The translations under genes were made by a program, and so were the position numbers. 64,000 nucleotides of DNA, from positions 1 to 64,000 of the forward strand of contig JANYLK010000139.1 of assembly GCA_025357875.1 (NCBI GenBank), read 5' to 3'. The stretch's first letter is position 1. Each line of letters starts with the position of its first letter. A model generated the notes under the pieces. It had not been told where the DNA came from. It worked only from the letters and a program-made list of their open reading frames with translations, and searched no databases. Below, in pieces: positions 324-18,827 of this stretch. Source of the DNA: Granulicella sp. Its GTDB lineage: Bacteria > Acidobacteriota > Terriglobia > Terriglobales > Acidobacteriaceae.

Positions 324-980
324 ATGCATAAAGACTCTTACTGGATGCGACGATTCAAGCAGCATTTGGCCCTTGCTGCAGCCTCAATTGTCATAGTTTC
401 GCTCGCATACACTGCGACGCCTCCGCCAGATGTACGTCATAGACTGAGCATGGCTACTGCCTATGCTGGTCTGATCTTTCTTGCAGCATCTCTTTGTCTC
501 GGACCGTGGAATGTTCTGCGGCGCAAGCCCAATCCCATCAGTTTCGATCTGCGTCGAGATGTGGGCATCTGGACTGGGATTCTAGCAATTGTGCACATGG
601 CGATCGGATTGACCGTCCATCTTCGCGGGCGGATGTGGATGTATTTTTTCAAATCTCTCCATCCAATCCACCTGCAAAATAAGCAATTCGGTTTTGCGAA
701 CTTTACCGGACTCGCGGCTGCGCTTCTTTTTGTGATGCTTTTAGCTATCTCGAATGATTATTCGCTGCGGGCATTGAAGACGCAGCGTTGGAAGTTTTTG
801 CAGAGATGGGCCTATGCAGCGTTCGCGCTGACGGTCGCTCATGGCATTGCTTATCAATTGATTGAGAAACGCCACCGCCCCTGGGTTCTCATTTCTGCAT
901 GGATCATGGTCGCAGCTGGTGCTGCTCAATTCATTGGTTGGGTACATGCTCGACGGCGGATAAACCACGGCCGGGGATGA
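324..980 (+). CDS. ferric reductase-like transmembrane protein (MsrQ/FRE-type haem membrane domain)
   Basis: A 218-residue protein with about six membrane segments (roughly 14-31, 44-60, 80-100, 124-143, 161-180, 187-207). Histidines H91, H99 and H173 lie in or next to membrane helices, as in the ferric-reductase-like domain (PF01794), where paired histidines bind b haems. There is no FAD/NAD domain, so it is an electron-transfer membrane subunit rather than a full reductase; MsrQ-like is possible, but no msrP gene is adjacent. I see no clear ribosome binding site for ATG 324 or for the internal ATG at 345, so the start is uncertain. It converges on the GH51 gene with a 41-bp gap. Confidence 0.75.
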   Translation: MHKDSYWMRRFKQHLALAAASIVIVSLAYTATPPPDVRHRLSMATAYAGLIFLAASLCLGPWNVLRRKPNPISFDLRRDVGIWTGILAIVHMAIGLTVHLRGRMWMYFFKSLHPIHLQNKQFGFANFTGLAAALLFVMLLAISNDYSLRALKTQRWKFLQRWAYAAFALTVAHGIAYQLIEKRHRPWVLISAWIMVAAGAAQFIGWVHARRRINHGRG

Positions 981-1021
981 CTAAATATCGGGCGGACTGC
1001 TGACTACGCGAGAACGACCGT

Positions 1022-3088: not shown

Positions 3089-3113
3089 CAGTAGGTCTCC
3101 TGGTGGTAGTGAT

Positions 3114-3127
3114 TGTAATCGCTTGCA
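3114..3127 (+). promoter_or_regulatory. LacI-family-type operator upstream of the GH51 gene
   Basis: TGTAATCGCTTGCA matches the near-palindromic TGTAA-CG-TTNCA pattern of LacI/GalR-family operators. It sits about 26 bases upstream of the GH51 start codon. A similar site (TGTAAACGCTTGCG on the minus strand) lies upstream of the GH5-like gene at 8627-8640. The regulator is not in the window. Confidence 0.5.
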
Positions 3128-3162
3128 GATATGTTGTGACCTCGATGAAATCATATGCTGGC

Positions 3163-4326
3163 CTAAAACCTTCCGCTTGTTGCAAGTGGTTCACCTTTGC
3201 CCTGTTGTTGACGATCTAGTTCGACGGCGATCCCGAGTTCAAGATCAGACGCTGGTTTGTCGCCCAGTCGAACAAGCGTAAGTCCCAAATAGTAGTGCGC
3301 TGGCTGGTAATCGGGCGACGCCTCGGTGGCAGCCGATAGTTGCTGGTGAGCCGTCGGATAGTCCTTTGCGCGATATGCGATGATCCCGAGGCCGGTGAGG
3401 GCACCGCCATGTCTGGGATTGCGCGCGAGTGTCTTCTCAAAGAACTGGCGGGCAGAGGTGTCTTGATGTTCGTCGAGGGCGATTTGGCCGAGCTGATAAT
3501 ACGATTCGGTTTGGGTGGGTTGTAGCTCGATGGAGTTTTGGAACTCTGCAGCCGCTGCATCGCTTTGTTGCTGTCTTTCGAGGACGTGACCAAGCCCATA
3601 GTGAGCTGAGGCGTCGCGCGGGCGGACAGCCAGATAGGCGCGTAGATGCCGCTCCGCTTCGGGAAGATGATCCTGGTCCGTTTCGACCCGCGCAAGGGCG
3701 TAGATGGTATCGAGCCGCTCTGGAGCAAGACTGAGCGCTGTCTTAAGGACCTCCGCGGCTTCGGGCAGTAAATGCATCTGTTGTGCCTGGATGCCAAGAT
3801 CCGTAAGCAGCGTTGGGTCGTCAGGGAGACTCTTGCGGGCCTGTCTCAGGCTCGCTAAGGCGTCTTCATGACGGCCGTCAGCGCGAGCCTCGAGAGCCAG
3901 AGCAGTTGCAGCAGTAAGTTCATCCTTGCGGGCATCCACGTCTTGCCGGTCATTGGCAAGGACAATCTCGAATCGCTCCATGGCTTCCTGGTAGTGATGC
4001 TGACTGATAAGGATCTTGCCAAACGTGATGTTCGCTTCGCGCGAGTCCGGGTTGGCTTCGAGCGCTCGTTCAAGAAGTGGTATGGCTGTACTGGTATCGC
4101 CGTCGTCGATACGAAGGCGTGCAAGGCTGGTCAGTGCCTCGACATCATCCGGATGGGTGGCGAGATAGCTACGCAGAATTTCTGCCGCTTCCGCCGGATG
4201 ATGATCGTTGGTGAGGGTTGTGGCCCTCTCGATTGAAGTCTGTGGAAAGCTTTTGTACGAAAACGCTACCGTCAGAACAACAAGCAGGATTGCAGAGTCT
4301 GCGACGTTGGATAAAAGACGACTCAT
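3163..4326 (-). CDS. TPR-repeat protein (membrane-anchored or exported)
   Basis: With the start at 4326 the product is 387 residues: a hydrophobic N-terminal segment (SAILLVVLTVAFSYKSF) followed by about eight tetratricopeptide repeats, recognisable by repeated A-x-ALxxALxxxP patterns such as LLERALEANPDSREA and LKTALSLAPERLDT. TPR arrays bind partner proteins. The frame extends upstream to 4557, overlapping the preceding TPR gene, but that part is not protein-like and the hydrophobic segment would then be internal; the start is therefore uncertain. It is the third gene of a minus-strand run CRTAC1-TPR-TPR and is followed by the GH51 gene. Confidence 0.8.
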   Translation of the reverse strand: MSRLLSNVADSAILLVVLTVAFSYKSFPQTSIERATTLTNDHHPAEAAEILRSYLATHPDDVEALTSLARLRIDDGDTSTAIPLLERALEANPDSREANITFGKILISQHHYQEAMERFEIVLANDRQDVDARKDELTAATALALEARADGRHEDALASLRQARKSLPDDPTLLTDLGIQAQQMHLLPEAAEVLKTALSLAPERLDTIYALARVETDQDHLPEAERHLRAYLAVRPRDASAHYGLGHVLERQQQSDAAAAEFQNSIELQPTQTESYYQLGQIALDEHQDTSARQFFEKTLARNPRHGGALTGLGIIAYRAKDYPTAHQQLSAATEASPDYQPAHYYLGLTLVRLGDKPASDLELGIAVELDRQQQGKGEPLATSGRF

Positions 4327-4468: not shown

Positions 4469-5563
4469 TCAGCGAATTTCAGCATCACGGGTCGTAGCTT
4501 TCGGTCTATTCCGATCCACTTCAGTCGTCGAGGAATGTGTGCTGTACAGTTCCGCACTCTTCTTCAACTCGATCTGGCTGCGGTTAGTGAAGCCGGCTCT
4601 TCGACACATTTGTCCGAGTTGGAAGTGAAGGCGTGGGTTTTCCGGGTCTAGGGCAATTGCTTGCTCCATCTGTTCACGGGCAAGGTCTTCCTGATGGGCA
4701 CCCGCGTACGCGCGAGACAGCTCTTCGTGACATCGACTGCTCGATGGGGCAAGGATTACGGCCTTTTGGAGCGGAGCGATTGCCTCGGCGGAGCGGTTCC
4801 TGCTGTTTAGCAATGCACCGAAATTGAGCAGCGGTTGCTCGCTTGGATGCTGGGTTTTTGCCTGAGCTGAGATCGCGCTGGAGTATGCGGTTAGAGCATC
4901 CTCGGTACGATTCTGGGCTTCGAAAGAGAGGCCCAAATTGTCGAGCGCTTTCGCACTGGTCGGATTAATCGCCAAAGTCCGCTTAAAATCGCGCTCGGAT
5001 TCAACAAAATTGCCTTCGTACATCTGCGCGCGACCGAGGTCATACCACGCCTCCGCGCTATCCGGATCGGCAGCCAGGCAACGACGTAGCCAGTGGACAG
5101 CGTCGACATAGTCGTCGAGCAGAACATAGTCAAGCGCGACCAGCCTGAGATCTTCAGGACGCGGAGTGGTGATGGCGGCGGCGCGAGTGAATACCTCAAG
5201 CGACTCTTGAGGTCTGTTCTGGCGTTGGAGAACATAGCCGAGAAGGTACAGGGCAGGCGATGATTTGGGGTTCTGCTCGAGGTAGCTGTGCAGCACGGGC
5301 TCCGCAGCGGCCGATTCATCGAGATTGAAAAGTGAATCCGCCTGCATCAGGAGAGCATCGGTATGCGACGTAAGAGGTATCCCTTGTTCTGCTGCTGCTA
5401 CTGCAAAGAGAGCGGCGGCCTCACGGAAATGCTTGCTGGCGAAGGCTTCCTGGGCCTGGGCATAGGTGTTAGGTTGTTGAGCACGAGTTGAATCGGGCGC
5501 GACGATGGCTAGAAAGAATAAAACTTTGACTGAATGCGATCCGAGTTGTCTCAGGGCATTCAC
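4469..5563 (-). CDS. secreted TPR-repeat protein
   Basis: A 364-residue protein with an N-terminal signal peptide (VKVLFFLAIVAPDSTRA, cleavage near AQQ) and about eight TPR units, for example DSAEAWYDLGRAQMYEGN and NPTSAKALDNLGLSFEAQNR. It starts with GTG at 5563, which overlaps the stop of the upstream CRTAC1 gene as GTGA, so translation is probably coupled. The same layout (VCBS/UnbV protein followed by exported TPR proteins) is familiar in Acidobacteriota, but its role is unknown; a periplasmic scaffold working with the CRTAC1 protein is an inference. Confidence 0.85.
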   Translation of the reverse strand: MNALRQLGSHSVKVLFFLAIVAPDSTRAQQPNTYAQAQEAFASKHFREAAALFAVAAAEQGIPLTSHTDALLMQADSLFNLDESAAAEPVLHSYLEQNPKSSPALYLLGYVLQRQNRPQESLEVFTRAAAITTPRPEDLRLVALDYVLLDDYVDAVHWLRRCLAADPDSAEAWYDLGRAQMYEGNFVESERDFKRTLAINPTSAKALDNLGLSFEAQNRTEDALTAYSSAISAQAKTQHPSEQPLLNFGALLNSRNRSAEAIAPLQKAVILAPSSSRCHEELSRAYAGAHQEDLAREQMEQAIALDPENPRLHFQLGQMCRRAGFTNRSQIELKKSAELYSTHSSTTEVDRNRPKATTRDAEIR

Positions 5564-7272
5564 TTGGTACCGGTAACGTTGGCGGCTTCATCGACTTTGA
5601 GTATCTGATCGGCGTGGATGTTGATGAGCTTCTGCACCATACCGCTGGGCCAGCGTATCTCGATCGAACTAGCAACCGCGTCACTTCCAAGGCCGAAGTG
5701 GGCGCGCTTGTCGTTGGACGAGAGATAGCTGCCGGCTGTAGAGACGGTGCGGTACTGCGAGCCGTGCGTAGTTGTGACTTTGATCTCCGCACCAATCCCA
5801 TCGCGGTTCGACTTGTGTCCAATCAGATTGAGAATCAGCCAGTGGTTGGAGGTGACTGTCTCGTTATGCAGAATGTGAGCGGGACCGCCGTTCGTGGAGA
5901 CGACGGCGTCCAGCCGGCCGTCGTTATCGAGATCGCCTACAGCCAATCCACGGCCAACCCACGGCTGCTTAAATACGATGCCCGACTCCTTGCTGACATC
6001 GGCGAATGTACCTTTGCCAGTGTTGTGAGCCAGGAGCATGGGCTCTTTGTAGCGGAGTTGCGGATAGTTCAACTCGACTGTGTCGAGGTCGTGTCCCTGC
6101 GAGATGAGTAGGTCTTTGAAGCCGTCGTTGTCATAGTCGAGAAATTGGACGCCCCAACCGGAGTGAAGCAGGGTCATGCTTGCCATGCCGGAGGTATATG
6201 TCGAGTAGGTAAAGGAGCCGTCTCCATTGTTGTGATAGAGAGCGTATTTCTGGTTGGCGAGGTTTGTGATGACCAGATCCGGCAGGCCGTCGTTGTCGTA
6301 GTCCTGAAAGTCGATGCCCATCCCCGCATAGGTGCGGCCGTCCGCGTCGACAGCTATTTCGGCAGTGAGGCCAGTCTCTTCAAAGGTTCCGTCGCCCTTG
6401 TTGTGAAAGAGAAACTCGAGCATGGAATCATTGGCGACCGCGACATCGATTTTTCCATCCCGATCGAAGTCATTAATTGCCAGTCCAAGGCCCTTGCCGG
6501 GAGTAGCCATCCCTATCTTCTGCGCAACTTCGGTGAAGTGGCCATTCCCGTCGTTGTGATAAACGAGCGCGGAGATGGCGGGGAAGATGTCGGGGTGGCA
6601 GTAGGAACGGTATCCTTCGCGATGCTCGCCGCACCACACGTCGTCGAAGTCCCACACCACATAGCGGAGGACTATGAGGTCCAGCTTGCCATCATTGTCG
6701 AGATCAACCCAAGCCGCTGAGGTTGACCAGGTCTGGCCCGGCGTTGTGGGCCCGCCGGTTCCGGATTTCTCCGTGACGTCCGTGAAGGTTCCGTAACCGT
6801 TGTTGTGGTACAGCCGGTTGCCACCGTATGCGGTGACATAAAGATCTTCAAAGCCGTCGTTGTCATAGTCCCCAACGGCGACTCCCATTCCATAGCCGAC
6901 GCCCTTCAGCCCTGATTTCTCAGTTACATCTTCGAACGTGCCGTCCTTCTTTTGATGGTAGAGACGGTTCCAGTCTTCGGGCCCGGACTTCTGCGGGACA
7001 GTGCCCTTGGGTGTCGGATCGGTCAGCGGTGCGCCGTTAACAAAGAAGATGTCGAGAAGACCGTCGTTGTCGTAATCGAAGACTGCGACGCCCGAGCCCA
7101 TAGTCTCAAGCAGGTATTTCTGCGACGTATGGGAGGCAACACCTTTGAACGTAATCCCTGACTTGATCGCAGTATCGACGAATTTGCCTGCCGGTCCGGT
7201 AGGCCCGGGAGACTGCGCAACGGCAGTCGCGGTGAGTGCAAGAAGTGCGGCAGCGTGGAAGAATTTGGTCAT
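5560..7272 (-). CDS. CRTAC1-family protein with FG-GAP/VCBS repeats and ASPIC/UnbV domain
   Basis: A 570-residue secreted protein. The ATG at 7272 places a signal peptide (MTKFFHAAALLALTATAVAQ) at the N-terminus; the frame is open to 7332, but the extra residues are not signal-like. At least six FG-GAP/VCBS calcium-binding repeats carry the D-x-DNDG-x-xD signature (FDYDNDGLLDIFF, GDYDNDGFEDLYV, VDLDNDGKLDLIV). The C-terminal 80 residues match the ASPIC/UnbV domain (RDGIGAEI, GSYLSSNDKRAHFGLG, IRWPSG). It forms a seven-bladed propeller in related proteins, probably for extracellular protein or glycan binding. First gene of a coupled run with two TPR genes. Confidence 0.9.
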   Translation of the reverse strand: MTKFFHAAALLALTATAVAQSPGPTGPAGKFVDTAIKSGITFKGVASHTSQKYLLETMGSGVAVFDYDNDGLLDIFFVNGAPLTDPTPKGTVPQKSGPEDWNRLYHQKKDGTFEDVTEKSGLKGVGYGMGVAVGDYDNDGFEDLYVTAYGGNRLYHNNGYGTFTDVTEKSGTGGPTTPGQTWSTSAAWVDLDNDGKLDLIVLRYVVWDFDDVWCGEHREGYRSYCHPDIFPAISALVYHNDGNGHFTEVAQKIGMATPGKGLGLAINDFDRDGKIDVAVANDSMLEFLFHNKGDGTFEETGLTAEIAVDADGRTYAGMGIDFQDYDNDGLPDLVITNLANQKYALYHNNGDGSFTYSTYTSGMASMTLLHSGWGVQFLDYDNDGFKDLLISQGHDLDTVELNYPQLRYKEPMLLAHNTGKGTFADVSKESGIVFKQPWVGRGLAVGDLDNDGRLDAVVSTNGGPAHILHNETVTSNHWLILNLIGHKSNRDGIGAEIKVTTTHGSQYRTVSTAGSYLSSNDKRAHFGLGSDAVASSIEIRWPSGMVQKLINIHADQILKVDEAANVTGTK

Positions 7273-7404
7273 GAGAAGCGTATCGACTCCTGTGCAGGCC
7301 GAGGGTGTATCGAAGCGTAGGAGCGACTTCAACCTGCACTATTAAACTATCTTAGCCCGGATTTCGACGAGCGGGTGTGGCCGATGTGTCGTTGGCAAGA
7401 GTTG

Positions 7405-8553
7405 CTACTTTCTTGCACTCGCGGATGTCACCGGCGAGGCGCCCCGGCCTGTCAGCTCGCGGATGAGATCTACCTCGTGCTGGCGGTATGGGGTGTCATC
7501 CTGGCGGAAGACTTCGTGAAACCATACGGTGGGTTGTGATCGCACATAGGGCTTGTCCCACGAGTCCCATGGAAAATAAGTCTGCGTCTTGCCGGCAACG
7601 AGACCCCAGTTGATTGCAGCTACGTTATATTTTTTCGCGATAGGAAGACTGTTGTCGAAGGTACTGCCAGCGCCACGGGCCATGTACTCCGTGCAAAGGA
7701 TGGGGCGGTGATATTGCTGCAAAGAGAGGATCCGAGCCTCAAATTCCTCGGGCCAGCCGTAGTTGTGGAAAGAGATGACGTCAGACTCGGCGAGTTGAAT
7801 CCCCGTCATGGCGCTTTCCTGGTCAGGGTGGGTCCAGTCTCCGGTCCAGACTCCGCTGGTCAGCGGCTGCTTTGGATTTGCGGAGCGGGCCCACGCAAAG
7901 ACTCTAGGCAGGAGTTCGGCTACGCGCCTCACCTTCGCGACCTCATCCGCCACCGTGTCGCCGCCTCGGTTGTCGGGCTCATTCCACACGTCCCAGCCGA
8001 GTATACGGTCGTCATTAGCGAAGGCGCCAACTACGCCTTCTACGTAGCTCTTCAACTTTGGCTCATAAGAGCGGTCGAGCAACTCCTGCTTGCCGGGACT
8101 TTGTACCCAGCCGGAGTTGTGGATACCTGGGATTGGCGGATGCTGTGGACCGAGGTGCGGATTGGTCTCCCAGCATGAGTCGAACAGAACCAGCAAAGGG
8201 CGGATGTGGTGTTTGGCAGCGATTGACAAGAACATATCGAGACGCTTCTTGAAACCCTCGGGATCCTGAGACCAGAGTTGGTCCTGTAGAAATACGCGCA
8301 TCGTATTCATCCCGATGCTTTCGCCTAGACCCAGTTCCTTGTCATTTAACTCTGGATTGAAGGTTGTGGCCTGGAACATCTCAAGTTCATTGATCGCATC
8401 GGAGGGAATGAAGTTCGCGCCGACCAGCCAGGGCTGCTTCGAATACCAGGTTGTAGCCTGTGCCTCGGTCCACCGCCCCGGGCGGTTCTGAGCAATTAGG
8501 GAACTGGCCTGCAGTGCGACCAGACCAATGGTGAGGGCAACACGTACTTTCAT
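7405..8553 (-). CDS. secreted GH5-like glycoside hydrolase (clan GH-A)
   Basis: A 382-residue protein with a signal peptide (cleavage near IAQN) and a single (beta/alpha)8-barrel domain. The acid/base is E192 in WDVWNEPDN and the nucleophile is E289 in ILCTEYMARG, the clan GH-A arrangement. Segments WLVGANFIPS, NTMRVFLQDQLW and ISFHNYGWP resemble the GH5-like proteins often annotated as 1,4-beta-xylanase or cellulase-family hydrolase; the exact substrate (xylan, mannan or another beta-glycan) cannot be told. It is transcribed alone toward the CRTAC1 operon, 132 bp away, and a LacI-type operator lies about 75 bp upstream. Confidence 0.85.
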   Translation of the reverse strand: MKVRVALTIGLVALQASSLIAQNRPGRWTEAQATTWYSKQPWLVGANFIPSDAINELEMFQATTFNPELNDKELGLGESIGMNTMRVFLQDQLWSQDPEGFKKRLDMFLSIAAKHHIRPLLVLFDSCWETNPHLGPQHPPIPGIHNSGWVQSPGKQELLDRSYEPKLKSYVEGVVGAFANDDRILGWDVWNEPDNRGGDTVADEVAKVRRVAELLPRVFAWARSANPKQPLTSGVWTGDWTHPDQESAMTGIQLAESDVISFHNYGWPEEFEARILSLQQYHRPILCTEYMARGAGSTFDNSLPIAKKYNVAAINWGLVAGKTQTYFPWDSWDKPYVRSQPTVWFHEVFRQDDTPYRQHEVDLIRELTGRGASPVTSASARK

Positions 8554-8890: not shown

Positions 8891-10174
8891 TTAGTGTGGC
8901 ACGGACTTCCATAGGGGTCTACGGATCGGGAATCCAACGGAGAACTGAAGGTTTGGCGTGTCTGGGGTGAGGCCTACACCGAAGCTCAGATCCACCATGC
9001 GGTTAGGCGCATACATATAAGAGGTGCCGATTCTAAGGGTTCCTTCCACCAGATACGAAGCGGGCAGGCGCACTCCGTCCAACTTCGTTTCTTGTGTAAA
9101 TCGCTGGTCCCAACCGAGAGTCATCGATGTCTCCGTGTTCAGAGCGAGGATGGAACCCAACTGAAAGCCGAAAGAGTCGCCCGGCCGCAAATAACCCACA
9201 GTGCTCGTCACACTTGGATCAGCGGCATCGCTGACTGGAATCGTGTGATGTGCAGGAAGGCTTCTGGTATACGAAAGGCTTCCGAAAAACACGACGGGAT
9301 CGCTCGATTTGGCCGCGGTCAGACTTCCTTGCAACGAGTTAAAGCCGCTACCGAGTGAAGTTTCGGCGCTCTGCAAATCGTAGGAATTCGTTCCTGTCGC
9401 GGACTTGAAGCGAAAATTTGCAAGCATGTCAGGAACTTTGCCGCGCTCCAGGGTCAACTGCCGGGATAGGCCCGCCGAGATATCGCCGAGGCCAAACTGA
9501 CTTACGGAGGTCTCCTTGCTGTTCGACGCCACTGCCCGATTCAGGACGTATCCGTAAGGAACGGTGACATCCATCTGAAATCTCTTGGGCAAGCCAAGTC
9601 GCGCGGTCAGCGAGTGGATCAGGATGTCTCTTCGCAGGCGTTGCGAAGTGATGTCTCCGACCACCAGAATCGGCAACAAGGCGAATCCATCAACAGTCAG
9701 ATGGTCCGATGACATGCTGAAGTAGGACGCTGTATTGTCGGCCTCAAGTACTCCACTGGGAAGCAGCAGTCCTCCGCGAACCAGCAGCGCTTGATCGAGC
9801 GATTGGGACGCGCGGCGTTCCTCCTCATCATAGGCAGAGTTATTGACGACGGCGGCCTCTCGCTCAGCAGACGGGGTAACGAACGCGGCAGTTTTCGCTG
9901 GCGTACTACTATGGACCGCACCGCTGCGGGCGGTACTGCCACTCTCTGCATTCAGCCGGCTTTCTAGTTCCTGAACCCGTTCCAATAAATTGCGAATGAT
10001 GGCGTCGCGCTCGCGCAGAGCGTTCTGGATCTTCACATCCACATTGTCCTGCGGCTCATGCACGGCCAAGCTAGCCTGTGCCGGAGGGTGTGACGCCCCG
10101 CTTGTAGTTTGGGCAAACAAGGAATGGATTCCAAAGGCAAGAACGAAGCTCACCAGGTAAGAACGCGATAGCAT
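8891..10174 (-). CDS. FapF-like outer-membrane protein: coiled coil plus beta-barrel
   Basis: A 427-residue exported protein: signal peptide (cleavage near LFAQ), a coiled coil at about 46-76 (VKIQNALRERDAIIRN, ELESRLNAE), a low-complexity linker, then about 280 residues of alternating strand pattern ending in VGFPIRRPLWKSVPH, as in an outer-membrane barrel. FapF of Pseudomonas has the same order: N-terminal trimeric coiled coil, plug, 12-stranded barrel that secretes amyloid subunits. Here it is the last gene of a four-gene operon, 18 bp after a C39 peptidase gene (FapD-like). The family call rests on architecture and context. Automated pipelines may label such proteins simply as transporters. 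Confidence 0.65.
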   Translation of the reverse strand: MLSRSYLVSFVLAFGIHSLFAQTTSGASHPPAQASLAVHEPQDNVDVKIQNALRERDAIIRNLLERVQELESRLNAESGSTARSGAVHSSTPAKTAAFVTPSAEREAAVVNNSAYDEEERRASQSLDQALLVRGGLLLPSGVLEADNTASYFSMSSDHLTVDGFALLPILVVGDITSQRLRRDILIHSLTARLGLPKRFQMDVTVPYGYVLNRAVASNSKETSVSQFGLGDISAGLSRQLTLERGKVPDMLANFRFKSATGTNSYDLQSAETSLGSGFNSLQGSLTAAKSSDPVVFFGSLSYTRSLPAHHTIPVSDAADPSVTSTVGYLRPGDSFGFQLGSILALNTETSMTLGWDQRFTQETKLDGVRLPASYLVEGTLRIGTSYMYAPNRMVDLSFGVGLTPDTPNLQFSVGFPIRRPLWKSVPH

Positions 10175-10192
10175 GGGTCCCTCTTTGCAACC

Positions 10193-10873
10193 TCAATACA
10201 GTCCGTTGCTCGGTGTAGTAATGCCAATATTGCGGGTGATCAGACTCTCGTCAGGAACCGTTCTTGCGGCGGTAGACATGCTCCTGGGCGCCTGCATTAG
10301 CTCGTCTGGAGGATGAACGGTAAACACAATTCCGTTCTTCCAGATCTCCTTAAAACGGCTCGTCTTCATCGTAACGTTACCGAAGCCAGGGTCAGCCAGG
10401 AATACGCGATCACTGGTCACGCCCTTCACCACGACAAAATGATCGAATCCCTTAAGTCGAATTGGGACGATGACAGAACTCTTCTGGCTGGCGAGCTCGT
10501 CAAGCGACATGTCGCTGTATCCCTCTGCCTGGTAGCCGCGCGCCTGTGCGAAATGCTTGAGGTCCAATAGTGAAAAACCACCTCTCGCGCGCACACGCCC
10601 TGGGTCGGTGCGGTGCAGAATCCATACAACGATCGCCGACTCCGGCGTGTTATCCGTAAAATCATACGTTAGGAGTGTGCTCAGCGCCGCAGCGCCGCAA
10701 CTGAGATCCCAGCGCTGTCGCACTACACCATCGTTTCGGATGTCCTTCAGAGTGCGAATGTGCTTTCCTCCTTCTACTCCCGCCCCATCCAGTATGGTCT
10801 GGGCATAGGCGGGAGTAAGTAGGAAGGCAAAAGCCATCAACACCGCTACGAACATGGATCTGCAAAAGCGCAT
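10193..10873 (-). CDS. C39-family cysteine peptidase, FapD-like
   Basis: A 226-residue protein with a signal peptide (MAFAFLLTPAYAQ), so it acts outside the cytoplasm. It has the C39 peptidase residues: oxyanion Q53 and nucleophile C59 in RQRWDLSCGAAAL, H145 in GFDHFVVVKG and D161 in LADPGFG. It lacks the ABC-transporter domains of bacteriocin exporters and is a stand-alone peptidase, as is FapD in Pseudomonas amyloid operons. Its start shares base 10873 with the end of the preceding small-subunit gene, so the two are tightly coupled. Likely substrates are the two upstream gene products, which both carry a leader-like D-x3-[ML]-D-[KR]-V-T-A motif. Confidence 0.85.
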   Translation of the reverse strand: MRFCRSMFVAVLMAFAFLLTPAYAQTILDGAGVEGGKHIRTLKDIRNDGVVRQRWDLSCGAAALSTLLTYDFTDNTPESAIVVWILHRTDPGRVRARGGFSLLDLKHFAQARGYQAEGYSDMSLDELASQKSSVIVPIRLKGFDHFVVVKGVTSDRVFLADPGFGNVTMKTSRFKEIWKNGIVFTVHPPDELMQAPRSMSTAARTVPDESLITRNIGITTPSNGLY

Positions 10874-11271
10874 CAGTGTTTTCCGTTCAAGTTCGACTGC
10901 AGAATCGAACCTACCGTCGAGTTGATATTAATGTTCAAGTTCAGCAGAACGTTGATCTGCGAATTCACCGCGTTGATATTGATTAGTGAACTCAGATTCT
11001 GTTGCGCACTGCCGTTCAAAGTAAGGCTGCCAAGCGTCGTCGTGCTGGTGAGCGGAGCGGTTTGCATCGCGAGCGTCCCGGTACTGGAAACAAGCCCGTT
11101 TGCTGTTGCTACCTGCCCAGAAAACTTGACCACCCCCTCGGATACCGTTGCAGAAACTCCCGCTGCGGTGACCCGATCCAGCACGCTGTCGTCCAACGGC
11201 TTCTTCTTCAATTGAGACTCACCTACTTGCGTAAACAACGCCAAACTCAGGATCACTAACGTTCGGTACAT
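10873..11271 (-). CDS. small Fap-like amyloid-related subunit
   Basis: A 132-residue exported protein (signal segment MYRTLVILSLALFTQVGES) with a good GGAGG site before ATG 11271. Residues 26-38 (PLDDSVLDRVTAA) resemble the leader motif of C39 substrates. Residues about 86-116 (SLTLNGSAQQNLSSL, ININAV..) align without gaps to the C-terminal repeat of the larger neighbour (SINLSGAAQQNASAI, NLVNAA..). The C-terminus is rich in alternating N/L/I (LLNLNININ), typical of beta-stacking proteins. By position and size it could be a minor subunit or nucleator, like FapB or FapA in pseudomonads; which one is not decidable here. Confidence 0.7.
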   Translation of the reverse strand: MYRTLVILSLALFTQVGESQLKKKPLDDSVLDRVTAAGVSATVSEGVVKFSGQVATANGLVSSTGTLAMQTAPLTSTTTLGSLTLNGSAQQNLSSLININAVNSQINVLLNLNININSTVGSILQSNLNGKH

Positions 11272-11300
11272 AAATCCTCCCTATTGCTCGTGAAGGTAGA

Positions 11301-11336
11301 CCGAGGCATCCCACTAATGTCTGGAGGATGCCTCGG
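11301..11336 (-). promoter_or_regulatory. intercistronic hairpin between the two amyloid-like genes
   Basis: A perfect 11-bp stem (11301-11311 with 11326-11336, CCGAGGCATCC/GGATGCCTCGG) with a 14-base loop sits in the 74-bp gap after the large subunit gene. On the minus strand it is not followed by a T-run. It could be a partial attenuator or an mRNA 3'-end stabiliser that keeps the major subunit in excess over downstream genes. Confidence 0.6.
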
Positions 11337-11345
11337 CCCCGATCG

Positions 11346-12926
11346 TTAGCGCATCTGAGAAATGCTGTTTGACTGGTTCAAAGTAGGAGTTACGTTCATG
11401 TTCGTCGTGCGGGCGATGTTGACACCGTTAGCAACCATGCTGCCAGCGGCATTGACAAGGTTGATAGCGCTTGCATTCTGTTGAGCAGCACCAGACAAAT
11501 TGATGCTGGACGATTTGGTTGTGGTGATCTTCGATCCATCAACAGCGATATTCTCCCCGGCTGCAGAGGCGATGTCGGTCGCGCCCTGAAGCGTGTTGAC
11601 AACATGGCTGTTCTTTACGCTGTTGCTCGAAGATGTATCGGTCTTCTGCAGGTTCATGCTGGTTACCGTGCTGGTGGTGGAGTTCTTCGTATCGCTTCTG
11701 CTGCGATTTTCAGAAGAGTTTTTTGCGGAGTTGGAGGCTTCACTGCTGGAGCTGCTGGAGGAAGCAGTGTCCTGCGATGCGCTGTTGTTGCTGCTCGACA
11801 TAGCATGTTGTGAGGCTTCGATCTCGCCCGAATTGGAAGCTGCATTGGCGGACTTGGACGTGTTTGCAGCCAAGGAAGCCTTCGAGCTCGCGCTCTCTGC
11901 TTCAGTGGAATTATTTGTGCTGTTCATGGTTCCTGAAGTCGCAGTGGCTCCATTCGAGGTGGAGTTGCTTGCTGAAGCACCCTTCGATGCATCAGCGGCC
12001 TGAGTTGCATTTCCCGTCGCCGAGGTGTTGTTCGCACCATTGTTAGATTTATTGTTGAATGCTGAATTGTCGGTCGCATTCGCCGTCCCGGTCGGGGTGG
12101 CTGAAGCGGACTCACTTGTGCTGGAATTGCTGGTTGCATTATTGGTGGTGCTTGCCTTGGTTCCGGCGGCGGTTTCGTTCTCTGTCCTGGCCTTTTCCGA
12201 ACTTGCACTCGACGCCGAGGTCGCCAAAGAGGAGCTGGTCGCAGCTTTGGTGTTGGTTTCACTGCTTGAACCAGAAGCCGTGCTCGTGCTCCCTGCGCTC
12301 TTTGTAGAGGACCTAGCTGCGTCCATCTTCTCGCTCTCAGTCTCGCTGGACGACGAACTGCTGGATTTCGCCGAAGTGTCGACATCGGTTGAGTTGCTGG
12401 AAGCACTGTGATTGAGGGCTCCAACGAGGCTCAAGGTGGAGTTCATGCTCTTCGTGTCCGTGGAGGACTGTGTATTGTCCGATAACGTATTCGCTCCATG
12501 CTTGTATCCACTCAGAGTCGCACCACTAGCGGCCTCGGATTGGGCGATCGAGTTCCCCTGGGACACATTGGAGCTGCTGCTGTTGCTGACCGTCGTCAAG
12601 CTGCCGCTCCAGACGTTCACGCCGTCTGCAACTGAGCTATCCGAGGCGGACACGACATTGACACCCTTTGCGCCTTCCATCGCTGTTCCAGAGATATTTA
12701 AAGATGCATCCCTGGTAGTGGATACGGTTGAGTTATTCGCTGCGATATTGCCGCCAGCCGATTCCGATGTGGTCGTAGTCGCACCGGCCGTGACTTTGTC
12801 CATCTGCGTGTCGCTAATAGTCTGTGCTTTGTTGTTTTTGGTAGATGACGCGGCCTTGCCTTGGCCGAATGCGACTCCATACGTGAGTACGGTTGCAGCT
12901 ACGAAAGTGCTAATGATTTTATTCAC
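11346..12926 (-). CDS. Fap-like functional amyloid subunit candidate (repeat-linker-repeat, Ser/Thr/Asn/Ala-rich)
   Basis: A 526-residue exported protein. GTG 12926 is the start because GGAGGA lies 5 bases before it and a signal peptide follows (cleavage near VAFG). Residues 38-48 (SDTQMDKVTAG) look like a double-glycine-type leader. Two about 50-residue repeats flank a 340-residue S/T/N/A/E-rich linker: repeat 1 at 56-107 and repeat 2 at 455-506. They align without gaps (SLNISGTAMEGAKGVNVV against SINLSGAAQQNASAINLV), and both carry GVN, as in the GVNxAA motif of FapB/FapC. There are almost no aromatic residues and no cysteine. First gene of the operon with the small subunit, C39 peptidase and FapF-like barrel. 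Amyloid function is inferred. Confidence 0.65.
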   Translation of the reverse strand: MNKIISTFVAATVLTYGVAFGQGKAASSTKNNKAQTISDTQMDKVTAGATTTTSESAGGNIAANNSTVSTTRDASLNISGTAMEGAKGVNVVSASDSSVADGVNVWSGSLTTVSNSSSSNVSQGNSIAQSEAASGATLSGYKHGANTLSDNTQSSTDTKSMNSTLSLVGALNHSASSNSTDVDTSAKSSSSSSSETESEKMDAARSSTKSAGSTSTASGSSSETNTKAATSSSLATSASSASSEKARTENETAAGTKASTTNNATSNSSTSESASATPTGTANATDNSAFNNKSNNGANNTSATGNATQAADASKGASASNSTSNGATATSGTMNSTNNSTEAESASSKASLAANTSKSANAASNSGEIEASQHAMSSSNNSASQDTASSSSSSSEASNSAKNSSENRSRSDTKNSTTSTVTSMNLQKTDTSSSNSVKNSHVVNTLQGATDIASAAGENIAVDGSKITTTKSSSINLSGAAQQNASAINLVNAAGSMVANGVNIARTTNMNVTPTLNQSNSISQMR

Positions 12927-13592: not shown

Positions 13593-15137
13593 ATGAAAAC
13601 TCCAGATGCTCCCGCGATCGTTTCGCCTGCGGCTGCGGACCCCTACCGCAACCCCATCGGTTTCGATTTCAAAAACACCTATGCCCGTCTGCCGGAGCGC
13701 TTTTATGCGCGAGTGGCGCCGACACCGGTAGTCGACCCGCACCTTATCAAGGTGAATGTGCAACTAGCTCGGAACCTCGGGCTTGATCCAGACGCGCTGG
13801 CAAGTTCGCAAGGCGTGGAGATCCTGGCTGGTAATCGCGTGGCAGAGGGATCCGAGCCTCTGGCAATGGCCTATGCTGGTCACCAGTTTGGAAATTTTGT
13901 ACCTCAGCTTGGCGACGGTCGCGCCAACCTGCTCGGGGAGGTTATCGGGCGTGACGGCGTACGCTACGACATCCAGCTTAAAGGCTCTGGACGGACCCCG
14001 TTCTCTCGCGGTGGAGACGGCAGAGCTGCTCTCGGCCCGGTGCTGCGGGAGTACATCGTAAGCGAGGCCATGGCAGCGCTCGGCGTGCCGACGGCGAGGG
14101 TGCTGGCCGCGGTGATGACAGGGCAACAGGTAATGCGCGAAACACCGCAACCTGGCGCCGTGATGACCCGGGTAGCAGCGAGCCACCTGCGCGTGGGCAC
14201 CTTCCAATATTTCGCTGCAAGAGGCGACACCGAGGGCACGCACATTTTGGCGGACTATGCGATCGCTCGTCACTACCCTGAGGCCGCGCAGGCGAACCAG
14301 CCGTACCGCGCACTGCTTGATAGCGTGGTCGCCAGGCAGGCGCACCTTGTCGCACAATGGATGCTGCTTGGCTTCATCCATGGCGTAATGAACACCGACA
14401 ACACGTCCATCTCGGGCGAGACAATCGACTACGGCCCCTGCGCCTTCATGGAGGCCTACGAGCCGAATAAGGTATTCAGCTCTATTGATCAGCAAGGCCG
14501 CTATGCCTATAGCAACCAGCCTCACGCTGCACACTGGAATCTTGTACGCCTCGCCGAGTCATTGCTCCCCTTACTTAACGAGGAAATGGGAAGTGAGGAG
14601 GCTGGGCTGGCTTCGGCGCAAGAGTCGCTCGCCGCATTCGCTCCGCATTTCGATACGGCTCGTGCTGCAGGTCTACGCCGCAAGCTTGGACTCACGATAG
14701 AGCATGAGGGTGATTTAGCACTGGCCGAGAAACTGCTCGATCGCATGGCCGCCAACCAAGCCGACTACACATTGACCTTCCGCCGATTGTGTGATGCCGT
14801 GGTCGGGACGGAAGCCGATACGGCCATACGCGCACTGTTCGCAGACCCTAGCGCTTACGACTCCTGGGCTGACGACTGGCGCAAGCGCTTGGGAAATGAG
14901 TCCGTCTCGGCACAGGAACGCGCTGTAATGATGAGGCGCGCGAGTCCAGCTTTCATCCCACGCAACCACTTGGTGCAGGCGGCGATCGAGGCCGCTGTCG
15001 ACCGGCAAGACTTCCGTTCGTTCGAGGAACTGCTGGATGTAGTGTCATGTCCATACGAGGACAGGCCGGCGCTGGAGCGGTACACCACGCCCGCTCGCCC
15101 CGAAGAGTGCGTCACTGCGACATTTTGCGGGACGTAA
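13593..15137 (+). CDS. selO: SelO/YdiU protein adenylyltransferase (UPF0061)
   Basis: A 514-residue protein matching the SelO pseudokinase family along its whole length: PERFYARV near the start, GHQFGNFVPQLGDGRA, the nucleotide-binding LKGSGRTPFSRGGDGRAALG segment, the active-site HGVMNTDN and DYGP motifs (metal-binding N and D), and FEPNKVFSSID-like YEPNKVFSSID. SelO transfers AMP from ATP to Ser, Thr or Tyr of target proteins, with roles in redox stress. The bacterial proteins usually end near NLSCSS; this one ends FCGT, so the C-terminal redox cysteine pair is not obvious. Monocistronic and convergent with the next gene. Confidence 0.95.
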   Translation: MKTPDAPAIVSPAAADPYRNPIGFDFKNTYARLPERFYARVAPTPVVDPHLIKVNVQLARNLGLDPDALASSQGVEILAGNRVAEGSEPLAMAYAGHQFGNFVPQLGDGRANLLGEVIGRDGVRYDIQLKGSGRTPFSRGGDGRAALGPVLREYIVSEAMAALGVPTARVLAAVMTGQQVMRETPQPGAVMTRVAASHLRVGTFQYFAARGDTEGTHILADYAIARHYPEAAQANQPYRALLDSVVARQAHLVAQWMLLGFIHGVMNTDNTSISGETIDYGPCAFMEAYEPNKVFSSIDQQGRYAYSNQPHAAHWNLVRLAESLLPLLNEEMGSEEAGLASAQESLAAFAPHFDTARAAGLRRKLGLTIEHEGDLALAEKLLDRMAANQADYTLTFRRLCDAVVGTEADTAIRALFADPSAYDSWADDWRKRLGNESVSAQERAVMMRRASPAFIPRNHLVQAAIEAAVDRQDFRSFEELLDVVSCPYEDRPALERYTTPARPEECVTATFCGT

Positions 15138-15173
15138 ACGGCCGCGCTGCGATCAGAGATTACCGATCGTGTT

Positions 15174-16238
15174 TCAGTCGATCTGCTTTGGCTCAACCTG
15201 TTTGTAGCCTGCGGGTGGGTTGAACTGCGACGCGTCTATAGGGGCCTTCGAGAATTCGGTCGTCTGCGTGGTCAATTCGATGAGCACCGCAGCCGCAATT
15301 TGCGCACCATTGGCGGAGGGTGGCGGGTCCTCCTGTTTTTTCTTCCTACCGAAACCTCCGAAGGGTAGGCTATTGATCACCGCGGACTTGGCGATGTCGC
15401 TCGCGGATGGGGGTGCCGGACCCGCCGGCAGAGACGCTTCGGAGGCGGCGGCCAGTGGCGTCCCGTCGACAGTGGTTCCCATGCGCATGATTTGAAGCAC
15501 CGGTATGCCTTTCAGCTTGGACATCTGCTCGACCATCTCTGCCATACCTTTTCCCGCGGCAGGTTGCTGCATCATGGCCATCATCTGCGTATTGATCGCG
15601 CCGCTCATCACGGTTCCCATCTTTGCGGCATACCGTTTGTAGAAGTCGCGGACTTCCTCGTAGCCGGGGATATCGGGAGCGAGGTACATGTCGTTAGTGA
15701 TGGCGAGGGAACCAGTCTGGCCCGACTTGCGGTCAGTGGCGTCCAGCGTCATCGTCATGATGGCTTCTTTAGCGCTGAGGCCGGCGACGTCCTTGGTTGC
15801 CCCGGTGTCATGAACCTTCACGTTGAACCCCATATCGATCTGCTGGGCGTCGCTACTAGGCGTGGAATTGGGCTGCTTCGCCTGCTGCGCCTTGGCTTTG
15901 GCCATGGCAGCCTCCATCTGCTGACGCATCTGCTCGAAGGTCATCGTGGTGTACTGCCTCTTAAGATGGTCGATGACGGTGACCGTTCCAGCATCGAGGT
16001 CGATGATCTCGGAATTGTCTTTGTTATTTCGCACCATTCGGTTGCCCTTGACCATGACCGTGGAAACGATTGGGTCGCTGGCCTGACGAGCCTGCTTGCT
16101 GAAGGCTCCCGCAAACTTCATCATGTTGACTACGGAGCCCCCGGTAATCTGGGTCGTCTCTTGGTACGTAAAGTCCGCGTAGGCGACGGTGGACATGGAC
16201 ACTAGCGTGCAGGTAAGCAGAATAGTAAGCGGCTTCAT
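15174..16238 (-). CDS. secreted protein of unknown function (DUF4412-like)
   Basis: A 354-residue protein with a clear signal peptide (ILLTCTLVSMSTVAYA). The N-terminal 110 residues (FTYQETTQITGGSVVNMM, VSTVMVKGNRMVRNNKDN, AGTVTVIDHLKRQYTTM) look like the beta-rich periplasmic LolA/DUF4412-type fold in which a readout of conditions is stored in short strands. It then has an Ala/Gln/Lys-rich helix (QQMEAAMAKAKAQQAK) and a region with Met-rich segments (GAINTQMMAMMQQ). I do not recognise a specific function. It stands alone, convergent with selO, and divergent from the DPP-IV gene by 207 bp. Confidence 0.75.
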   Translation of the reverse strand: MKPLTILLTCTLVSMSTVAYADFTYQETTQITGGSVVNMMKFAGAFSKQARQASDPIVSTVMVKGNRMVRNNKDNSEIIDLDAGTVTVIDHLKRQYTTMTFEQMRQQMEAAMAKAKAQQAKQPNSTPSSDAQQIDMGFNVKVHDTGATKDVAGLSAKEAIMTMTLDATDRKSGQTGSLAITNDMYLAPDIPGYEEVRDFYKRYAAKMGTVMSGAINTQMMAMMQQPAAGKGMAEMVEQMSKLKGIPVLQIMRMGTTVDGTPLAAASEASLPAGPAPPSASDIAKSAVINSLPFGGFGRKKKQEDPPPSANGAQIAAAVLIELTTQTTEFSKAPIDASQFNPPAGYKQVEPKQID

Positions 16239-16445
16239 GGATTCTTCTCCTGAGAAAAAAACCGAACTTGACCCGTTGTCAGCGTTCGACGAGGATTCTA
16301 CCAGTCCGGAGTAAGAATGCGCTTAAGCGTGAATCCGCGCTCTTCAAATGATAGGTGCCGAAGTGCTCACAATTCGTCTTGCTAAACTTCGTTGTGTGCG
16401 CTGATGATTGTGGTTTGGCGCTCCAATACGCGGAGGTGAAGGATA

Positions 16446-18827
16446 TTGCGAAGCTTGAGTTGGCTAGCGCTGGCGACGATTGGAGTTCTGTACTGCTGGA
16501 ACGCTACGGGTTCAGCGCAGTCAGGGCGGATCTACACTGCGACCGACTATGCACAGGCCGAGAAGTTCATGGACTATTACGTAAAGCCTCTGGTCTACCA
16601 CTCGGTGGATCATCCAACGTGGCTCGGCGATGGCCGTTTTTGGTATCGCGACACTGGATCGGATGGAACTACTTACATGCTGGTGGATCCCGCGAAGCGG
16701 ACCAAAGCCCCGGCATTTGACCACATTAGACTGACGGCGGAGTTGAACGCTGCGAGCGGTGCAGGTAAATTACCGGGAATCCTGGGCGGTTCGGTCGATT
16801 TGGGCGATCTGCCAATCGATACGTTCACTTTAGAGGATCGCGACGGCGTCGCGCTGCTGACGATTGGCACGCATCGGGTGCGGTGCGATCTGCGCGCTAA
16901 TGGAGTCTGCGTGCACTCAGGCGAGGTATTTGGCGGAGCTCCGGGGGTGACCTACGATCTTTCACCAGATGGAAAACAGGCAGCATTTATTCGCAACAAT
17001 AATTTGTGGGTGCGCGATGTTGCCGACGCGCGCGACACGCAGTTGACCAAAGACGGTGTCGAGAATTTCGGTTACGCAACCGACAACGCAGGATGGATCC
17101 ACAGTGATAAACCAATCCTAGTCTGGTCCCGCGACTCGAAGAAGATTGCAACGTTTCAGCAGGATCAGCGCAAGGTTAGACGGATGTATGTGGTCAACAC
17201 GACCGATGGGCACCCCGCGCTCGAATCGTGGGCGTATCCGCTGGCTGGAGACGAGAACGTGACAATGATTGAAAGGGTCATTGTCGATGTGGCAAGACGC
17301 AAAGTGGTGCGATTGAAGATGCCGCCAGACCAGCATCGATCGACTCTGTGCGACGACGTAAGTTGCGCCGGAGGTCACGGCTGGGACGACGTGCAGTGGA
17401 GCGAGGACGGAGTGCATCTCGCATTCGTCTCGACATCGCGGGACCACAAACATGAGTGGCTTCGCGTGGCCGACGCCGCAAGTGGCGACGTGCGCGACGT
17501 GATGAACGAGACGGTAGTGACGTACTTCGAGAGCGGGAACGGCAAAGTGAACTGGCGCTATCTGCCGCGGTCGAACGAGGTCCTGTGGTTCTCCGAGCGC
17601 GACAACTGGGGGCAGATGTATCTCTACGATTTGACGTCGGGCAAGTTGAAAAACCAGATTACGCGTGGCGACGGCAATGTGACGCAGGTACTGCATGTAG
17701 ATGAACAGGCTCGCGCGATCTATTTCCTCGCGTGTGGTAAAGAGGCTGGACGTGATCCGTACTTCTCCGCGCTTTATCGCATCAACTTCGATGGCACGGG
17801 GATGAAGCTGCTGACTGCGGAAGACGCCGATCACGACGTTTCCATGTCGCCGGACGGTCGCAACTTTATAGACGTAGCGTCCACTCCTGAGACGCCGACG
17901 GTGGCAATTGTTCGCGATCGCGACGGCGACATGATGATCGAAGTTGCGCGGGAGGATATTTCAAAGCTTCGCTCGAAAGGATGGAAGCCGCTTACGCCGA
18001 TTACGGTGAAGGCGCGCGACGGCAAAACTGACTTGTACGGGTTCCTGTTCAAGCCTACGAACTTCGATCCCTCGAAGCGGTATCCGATCATCGATCATGT
18101 CTATCCTGGGCCGCAGACCGGATCTTGCGGCAGTCGCAGTTTCTCCGCTGCGCATAAGGACATGGAGTCGCTTGCGGAGTTGGGATTCGTTGTGGTGTGC
18201 ATTGACGGAATGGGTACGCCGGGACGATCGAAGAGCTTTCATGAAGCGCTCTTTGGCGACTTGGCCGATAACACGATTCCCGATCAGGTGGCTGCGATCA
18301 CGGAACTGGCCTCGCGATATCCATGGATCGACGTCGAACGCGCGGGCATCTATGGCCATTCAGGCGGCGGCGCGGCGACTGCAGCAGCGATGTTTCACTA
18401 TCCTGACTTCTTCAAGGTTGGCATCAGCGAAAGTGGTAATCACGACAATCGCGTCTACGAAGACGACTGGGCAGAGAAGTGGATCGGGCTGTTAAAGAAA
18501 AATGCGGACGGAACGACCAACTACGATAGCCAGGCAAATCAGAATTCCGCGAAGAATCTAAAAGGGCATCTTCTGTTGATGCATGGGACGATGGACGACA
18601 ACGTGCCGCCGAACAACACACTTTTGGTAGTCGACGCGCTGATCCGGTCGAACAAGGACTTTGACCTGCTGATGATTCCGAATGCAAAGCATGGCTATGG
18701 CGCAGCAAACAATTACGTCACGAGGCGGCGCTGGGATTACTTCGTGAAGTATCTGGCGGACGGAGTACCGCCGCACGAATATCAGATGAAGCCTGAGGTA
18801 CATCAGTCATTCGAGACTCTTCAATGA
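16446..18827 (+). CDS. secreted S9B dipeptidyl-peptidase IV-type serine peptidase
   Basis: A 793-residue protein starting at TTG 16446, chosen because GGAGGTG lies 7 bases upstream and a signal peptide (LAWLATIG-like, ending GSAQ) follows directly. An eight-bladed propeller (about 120-520; FTWSPDG-like blocks such as VTYDLSPDGKQAAF) precedes an alpha/beta-hydrolase domain. The catalytic triad is about S639 in YGHSGGGAA, D718 in MDDNVPP and H749 in AKHGYG. Such enzymes cut X-Pro or X-Ala dipeptides from peptides in the periplasm. Its stop codon (18825-18827) directly abuts the stop of the convergent lipase gene. Confidence 0.93.
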   Translation: MRSLSWLALATIGVLYCWNATGSAQSGRIYTATDYAQAEKFMDYYVKPLVYHSVDHPTWLGDGRFWYRDTGSDGTTYMLVDPAKRTKAPAFDHIRLTAELNAASGAGKLPGILGGSVDLGDLPIDTFTLEDRDGVALLTIGTHRVRCDLRANGVCVHSGEVFGGAPGVTYDLSPDGKQAAFIRNNNLWVRDVADARDTQLTKDGVENFGYATDNAGWIHSDKPILVWSRDSKKIATFQQDQRKVRRMYVVNTTDGHPALESWAYPLAGDENVTMIERVIVDVARRKVVRLKMPPDQHRSTLCDDVSCAGGHGWDDVQWSEDGVHLAFVSTSRDHKHEWLRVADAASGDVRDVMNETVVTYFESGNGKVNWRYLPRSNEVLWFSERDNWGQMYLYDLTSGKLKNQITRGDGNVTQVLHVDEQARAIYFLACGKEAGRDPYFSALYRINFDGTGMKLLTAEDADHDVSMSPDGRNFIDVASTPETPTVAIVRDRDGDMMIEVAREDISKLRSKGWKPLTPITVKARDGKTDLYGFLFKPTNFDPSKRYPIIDHVYPGPQTGSCGSRSFSAAHKDMESLAELGFVVVCIDGMGTPGRSKSFHEALFGDLADNTIPDQVAAITELASRYPWIDVERAGIYGHSGGGAATAAAMFHYPDFFKVGISESGNHDNRVYEDDWAEKWIGLLKKNADGTTNYDSQANQNSAKNLKGHLLLMHGTMDDNVPPNNTLLVVDALIRSNKDFDLLMIPNAKHGYGAANNYVTRRRWDYFVKYLADGVPPHEYQMKPEVHQSFETLQ

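Follow-up and report, generated by a model that had tools for sequence, protein, structure and literature searches.

Within a 64,000-nucleotide stretch of DNA from Granulicella sp. (assembly GCA_025357875.1, contig JANYLK010000139.1, positions 1 to 64,000 of the forward strand; hereafter the window), four adjacent minus-strand genes encode a long and a short secreted repeat protein, a C39 peptidase and an outer-membrane pore. We think it likely that these genes form an outer-membrane export operon of the FapF/FapD type in the Acidobacteriaceae, whose product is probably an extracellular fibre or coat. This reading is carried by the gene order, the homology of the pore and the peptidase, the internal repeats of the subunits, and a conserved second leader that follows the Sec signal in both subunits and recurs in other C39-FapF loci. 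The presence of the leader on both subunits is a new feature here. Among the matches listed, open-licence papers describe neither such leaders on Fap-like subunits nor a Fap-like system in this group.

The genome is that of a soil acidobacterium (4.56 Mb in 229 contigs, 97.5% complete) and belongs to a genus of the Acidobacteriaceae whose named members in this dataset are Edaphobacter and Granulicella. A search with the contig returned 18 matches, all to close relatives (under the names Edaphobacter, Granulicella, Acidobacteriaceae, Acidobacteriales and Acidobacteria), which supports the acidobacterial host proposed in an earlier reading of the DNA (the original prediction). The list of open reading frames (ORFs) confirmed the four genes, in the order and at the place given there; the outer-membrane protein has 427 residues, not 426 (Table 1). 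Promoter and terminator scans found no excess over shuffled sequences (3 against 2.8 and 4 against 5.5, respectively).

Table 1. Features of the four-gene locus, with positions in the window
Feature	Position	Strand	Basis
Long secreted subunit, FapC-like, 526 residues, GTG start	11346..12926	-	ORF list, composition, four-gene co-occurrence in 26/28 loci
Long-subunit layout: Sec signal, leader, repeat 1, Ser/Ala/Thr/Asn-rich linker, repeat 2
Long-subunit leader, residues 37-48, ISDTQMDKVTAG	12783..12818	-	Present in 25/27 homologues
Long-subunit repeat 1, residues 58-129	12540..12755	-	hhalign against repeat 2, Prob 98.7
Long-subunit repeat 2, residues 448-526	11349..11585	-	hhalign against repeat 1, Prob 98.7; against short subunit, Prob 82
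Short secreted subunit, FapB-like, 132 residues, one repeat	10873..11271	-	ORF list; only full match of its own profile in the genome
Short-subunit leader, residues 26-37, LDDSVLDRVTAA	11161..11196	-	Present in 26/26 homologues
Short-subunit repeat, residues 81-132	10876..11031	-	80% mean pairwise identity, 26 sequences; hhalign
Stand-alone secreted C39 peptidase, FapD/FilB relative, 226 residues	10193..10873	-	PF03412, 61.6 bits; invariant catalytic residues
FapF-like outer-membrane transporter, 427 residues	8891..10174	-	PDB 5o65, E 5.8e-22; profile E 1.6e-29
Transporter, putative N-terminal coiled-coil segment, residues 45-77	9944..10042	-	Conserved block L53-N75, 26 sequences
Transporter, beta-barrel region, residues 140-416	8927..9757	-	Aligns with 33-331 of the FapF barrel structure

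Both subunits carry a C39-type leader behind the Sec signal

A 12-residue leader, which the original prediction had overlooked, lies between the Sec signal and the repeats of both subunits (for example, LNDAALDRVTAA and LRDNQMDKVTAA). A strict form of the leader pattern was found in all 26 short and in 25 of 27 long subunits, and in none of 282 background long ORFs of the same loci; with a looser form the counts were 26/26, 24/27 and 8/282. Across 51 leaders, position -12 is Leu, Met or Ile, position -7 Leu or Met, and position -4 Val or Ile, the pattern in the long subunit being L/I(-12), M(-7), V(-4), A(-2) and G/A(-1). The leader is also better conserved than its surroundings, with mean pairwise identity of 76% in the long subunit (46-50% on flanking sequence) and 69% in the short one (32-59%). 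Compared as profiles, the long and short leaders match with a probability (Prob) of 97, a value reached by none of 100 column shuffles. The available text of PMC6959990 gives the C39 leader consensus as L(-12), L(-7) and G(-2)G(-1), with specificity conferred by position -4; in that of PMC6363468, positions -12, -7 and -4 matter for cleavage by LahT, and GG, GA or GS occur. Judged by residue pattern, the spacing of the acidobacterial leader is thus that of C39 double-glycine leaders, with a real departure at position -2.

The leader was also scored with a matrix trained outside the group, on 15 leader words that came from nine further C39-FapF loci. When each locus in turn was excluded from training, a leader-bearing gene ranked first in seven of the nine loci and second in the other two (26-81 ORFs per locus). 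Two of the 15 words, one in L032 and one in L110, were outscored by another word of their own ORF. In the scan of L032 the highest rank goes to the pore itself; in L110 the second gene scores through a word other than the listed leader. Applied to the acidobacterial proteins, the matrix placed its best window on the leader in 26/26 short and 18/25 long subunits, of which 24 and 13, respectively, scored above the 95th percentile of the 282 background ORFs. Median scores were 9.3 for short subunits, 6.2 for long subunits, 0.5 for background ORFs, 2.0 for the C39 proteins and -0.1 for the pores. The long subunit of the window scores 12.0, above every background ORF (highest, 9.25), and the short subunit 7.7, above the background 95th percentile (6.05).

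Leader-like words in three settings were noted individually. The pore of a Cupriavidus metallidurans locus (L032, 7449-8921) has, after a coiled-coil-like stretch, the leader-like word VDSESLARKRGG, whose last residues are RGG; this recalls the published idea that FapD may cut FapF. In Acinetobacter FilA (L111, 5841-6710), the word MDDAALSAATGQ resembles the acidobacterial leader and has a weak score, 4.2. A distinct acidobacterial C39-FapF locus, from another family of the same phylum (L103 in genome G285, 676-3398), has its pore on the opposite strand; its GG leaders, VSAEQLEDQAGG and ISNEELDSQRGG, belong to a small secreted protein and to a second such protein.

The pore and the peptidase are relatives of FapF and FapD

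Over its barrel region, the pore matches the solved FapF structure (PDB 5o65) with the E-values given in Table 1, obtained with the single sequence and as a profile, respectively; this homology supports the proposal of a beta-barrel outer-membrane protein of FapF type. On the NCBIfam FapF model the pore scores 108 bits and on the FilC model 56 bits, below the cut-offs of 700 and 630; a genuine Aeromonas FapF, used as a control, scores 371 bits on the FapF model. Pores of Cupriavidus, Indioceanicola, Vibrio, Photobacterium and Polymorphobacter reach 134-168 bits on the same model, that of Croceicoccus 110 and Acinetobacter FilC 57. Among these, the pores of Cupriavidus, Vibrio and Polymorphobacter (141-168 bits) have no FapB or FapC match among their scanned neighbours, and the Photobacterium neighbours likewise gave no match to either model (proteins scanned: one for Cupriavidus, one for Vibrio, three for Polymorphobacter and two for each of two Photobacterium loci). 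The FapE model did match one Photobacterium neighbour (L063), weakly and across the leader of that protein (E 0.0053). As pores outside Fap score above the window pore on the FapF model, the latter is, by these scores, a member of the FapF/FilC superfamily that is not nested in Fap. It also scores 32 bits on the Pfam model Phenol_MetA_deg, above the cut-off of 22. A segment spanning residues 53-75 is conserved in an alignment of 26 pores, from which the decayed L059 and L060 were dropped, and coverage by the FapF model starts at position 43.

In a tree of 19 transporters, the acidobacterial pores form a clade (support 100/100) outside which the G285 pore falls; the tree holds one true Fap sequence and drew long-branch warnings, and its deeper branches are not settled. 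Within it, the window pore groups with that of G223 (L102), from another genus, and not with those of its own genus (100/98), which may reflect transfer between genera.

The peptidase bears out the proposal of a secreted, stand-alone C39 enzyme with complete catalytic residues: Q53, C59, H145 and D161 are all invariant in 26 aligned sequences (L059 and L060 had no match to enter into this alignment or that of the short subunit), and the protein is not fused to an ATP-binding cassette (ABC) transporter. Its signal peptide was assigned by eye. It scores 125 bits on the FilB model (cut-off 475) and 102 bits on the FapD model, in both cases below the cut-off. In a search of the whole genome it was the sole match to PF03412; the search therefore turned up no C39-ABC transporter to which the leaders might belong.

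The subunits share a repeat that the Fap models do not recognise

The original prediction held that the two repeats of the 526-residue protein align with each other without gaps over about 50 positions, and that the second aligns gaplessly with the small protein over about 31 residues. Profile comparison agrees on both counts: the two repeats are homologous (Prob 98.7, the first gap coming after about 50 columns), and repeat 2 is related to the short subunit (Prob 82). When the short-subunit profile was run against the whole genome at E 10, its two matches other than itself both fell in the adjoining long gene, one on the leader (E 0.018) and one on the C-terminal repeat (E 1.5). The mature long subunit consists of about 66% Ser, Ala, Thr and Asn, with three aromatic residues and no cysteine. 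Among 22 aligned sequences, its linker varies from 212 to 466 residues and has a mean pairwise identity of 37%, against 63-68% for the repeats; this alignment omits L036, L049, L052, L059 and L061, which have an unsure start or are split, decayed or short.

Repeat-bearing secreted partners beside the pore and peptidase were found as expected, the repeats being homologous by profile. Their identification with FapB and FapC was not supported: neither subunit reaches the NCBIfam FapB or FapC model at E 1, whereas Aeromonas subunits do match, and the FapC model has no match in 11 genomes of the group. Nor did solved structures match the subunits at E 10 in one search. One weak and five further structure matches look like chance, and weak matches of the short subunit to DUF2391, BON and similar families were set aside on the same ground.

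We compared the two subunits with proteins of ten other loci (764 ORFs). The short-subunit profile ranked a small protein of Croceicoccus first (E 0.0024) and one of Polymorphobacter second (E 0.67, not significant); the long-subunit profile gave no match under E 0.02. Small secreted proteins adjoin the C39-FapF pairs in Croceicoccus, Polymorphobacter, Photobacterium and Cupriavidus. A group profile of these (five intermediates, chosen by eye) matches the Aeromonas Fap repeats with Prob 74 (0/100 column shuffles). Against the acidobacterial repeats the same profile gives a low probability, Prob 13 for repeat 1 (0/100 shuffles), 7 for the short subunit (1/100) and 6 for repeat 2 (1/100), with all three alignments in one register. 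A remote common descent of the acidobacterial and Fap repeats, traced through these intermediates, is plausible if weakly indicated.

The four genes are conserved together within one genus

Conservation of the gene order in related genomes had been set beforehand as a check. Of the 28 loci from one acidobacterial genus (27 from 26 genomes, plus the window), 26 keep the order long subunit, short subunit, C39 peptidase, pore. The two exceptions are decayed: the pore is in fragments in L059 (genome G011) and truncated in L060 (G057), and neither locus has a short-subunit or peptidase match, which suggests that the genus has lost the system on more than one occasion. In L049 the long gene is split over two overlapping frames. 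The unit comprises these four genes, as other nearby ORFs of the window have no homologue at the remaining loci, except for an antisense frame of the long gene.

Of 99 relatives, 26 had a pore match; these all belong to the same genus (59 genomes), and the 40 relatives from the same order or class gave no match. An even sample of the phylum (396 genomes, threshold 1e-8) gave 16 matches, 14 of them in the same genus (the window genome included); the other two are G223, another genus of the family, which has the whole operon, and G285, with its different layout. The short-subunit and C39 profiles match an identical set of 15 among 61 genomes, and the one further FapF-positive genome is G011, which has pore fragments and neither of the other two genes.

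Five proteins flanking the operon in the window (5560-8553 and 13593-18827), including an ASPIC/UnbV protein, a GH5-like hydrolase and SelO, were found at none of 30 other loci, which places the window copy at another site; 23 of the 30 have a different pair of neighbours in common, of which one shows an ABC-ATPase-like motif in our reading. L104 and L105 were used for this comparison only. Genome G017 carries two copies of the operon (L042 and L061); as its assembly has 7% contamination, these are either paralogues or the copies of two strains.

Comparison with known systems

The operon resembles Fap of Pseudomonas and Aeromonas in its FapF-family pore, its secreted C39 protein with full catalytic residues and its repeat subunits directly upstream. 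It differs from Fap in order (long-short-C39-pore here, fap(A)BCDEF there), in having two repeats in the long and one in the short subunit where Fap has three and three, in the C39-type leader on subunits that the FapB and FapC models do not recognise, and in the absence of a fifth gene. The FapE model has no match in the window genome at E 1 and none over the cut-off in 11 genomes, six of which have sub-threshold matches. The proposal of a Fap-type operon is supported for the pore, the peptidase and the presence of repeat partners, and not supported by the FapB/FapC models, FapE, repeat number and the Fap gene order. A 2013 survey assigns Fap to three classes of Proteobacteria and describes FapD and FapF as members of larger families; the main text of a 2018 review, as far as available, reports FapD-FapF pairs in five more phyla, which it does not name.

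The Fil system of Acinetobacter (FilA-FilF) includes relatives of the peptidase and the pore, FilB and FilC, although the scores on both models are far below their cut-offs. The C39-FapF loci of Croceicoccus, Polymorphobacter, Photobacterium, Vibrio and Cupriavidus (L109, L064, L063, L110, L034 and L032) share the C39 protein, the FapF-like pore and one or more secreted proteins with a leader, plus a related small repeat protein in all except the Vibrio locus; they differ in having mostly GG at positions -2 and -1, and several have a second leader-bearing protein, that of L063 being the one with the weak FapE match. The PCAT/AMS transporters and their double-glycine leader peptides share the C39 family and the spacing L(-12), L(-7) and hydrophobic -4, whereas here the peptidase is stand-alone and secreted and the leader is placed after a Sec signal.

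A proposed export pathway and its alternatives

We propose that all four proteins reach the periplasm by Sec, as their N-termini suggest by eye. Both subunits would then expose the second leader (L-12, L/M-7, V/I-4, A-2, G/A/S-1), which the secreted C39 peptidase of the operon would bind and cut. The trimmed subunits would leave through the FapF-like barrel, a role suggested by its homology, and assemble outside the cell. The long subunit, with its two repeats joined by a low-complexity linker, may form the bulk of the fibre, and the short one-repeat subunit may be a minor partner or a nucleator. Cleavage, export and assembly are steps that we infer from the genes.

Several results weigh against this pathway. 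Position -2 is Ala in 51/51 leaders, followed by Gly, Ala or Ser, where GG, GA or GS is typical of C39 substrates. The training words were picked by an analyst with the hypothesis in view. With a smaller matrix of eight leaders, only 12/26 short and 9/25 long subunits exceeded the 95th percentile, and shuffled sequences did as well as the real ones in 2478 of 10200 cases. In a locus with no detected C39 gene and no listed leader, the best ORF scored 8.6; the match is probably spurious, but as it exceeds the Fil leader score (4.2), this locus is not a clean negative control. AlphaFold2 models of the two subunits (pLDDT, the predicted local distance difference test, 34 and 51) are too poor to show beta-arches. 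Compared directly with repeat 1, the short subunit and repeat 2, the Aeromonas Fap repeats gave Prob 7, 1 and 1, scores reached by 1, 18 and 17 of 100 shuffles. Mass spectrometry in Pseudomonas, in the available text, found FapB and FapC left intact.

Two other readings would be compatible with the export pathway. The operon could be a diverged true Fap amyloid operon, the long subunit being FapC and the short one FapB, with FapE and FapA lost and cross-beta fibrils as the product. The pore and peptidase homology and the operon shape of subunits followed by D and F speak for it, as does the proteobacterial small-protein group, which matches the Aeromonas Fap repeats and, weakly, these repeats. 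We nonetheless find it doubtful, given the lack of FapB or FapC matches and of FapE over the cut-off, the two-plus-one repeats, the non-Fap pores that outscore the window pore, and the available text of a source that describes the Pseudomonas Fap proteins as lacking canonical C39 sites. The product could instead be a secreted, disordered coat or adhesin and no amyloid, the long protein being exported unfolded with its repeats serving only as anchors. Its composition and the variable linker length would fit this, but the repeats are better conserved than the linker, which suggests an ordered role for them, and we hold this reading to be unlikely to a similar degree.

A Fil-type system, annotated in Acinetobacter as a putative pilus, is less probable again. 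The peptidase scores higher on FilB than on FapD and the FilA protein has a leader-like word; yet the pore scores about half as high on FilC as on FapF, the other Fil models are unmatched by the four proteins, and the FilA leader has a weak score, at rank 2 of 26. Least credible is a bacteriocin-like system using C39, or an importer barrel beside unrelated genes. C39 membership and the Phenol_MetA_deg match, a family described in the available source as structurally close to FapF, would allow it; it is disfavoured by a C39 protein that stands alone and is the only one matched in the genome, by large low-complexity substrates, by the co-conservation of the genes and by a FapF match that spans the whole barrel.

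Significance

Fap papers from 2017 and 2018 treat the substrate of FapD as unclear or undetermined, and the leader offers a testable answer. FapE was the best guess in 2017, because of its GG and GA motifs, and a 2025 review states, in the text available, that FapD is thought to process FapE and FapF. A conserved leader with this spacing, present in both subunits and in one or more genes of each of nine other C39-FapF loci (one of them weak), would allow a mutational test of the FapD substrate. We tentatively suggest, while giving it slightly less than even credence, that a double-glycine-type leader behind the Sec signal is a general client tag of FapF/FapD-type export, with the C39 cut in the periplasm licensing passage through the barrel; canonical Fap would keep the tag on FapE only, and the Acidobacteriaceae on both subunits, with FapE dispensable. 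A survey based on Fap-repeat models found Fap nearly fixed at three repeats, and we would not expect such a survey to detect the two-plus-one layout. If the suggestion is correct, Fap in the strict sense would be a single branch within a broader export family, most of which has no name.

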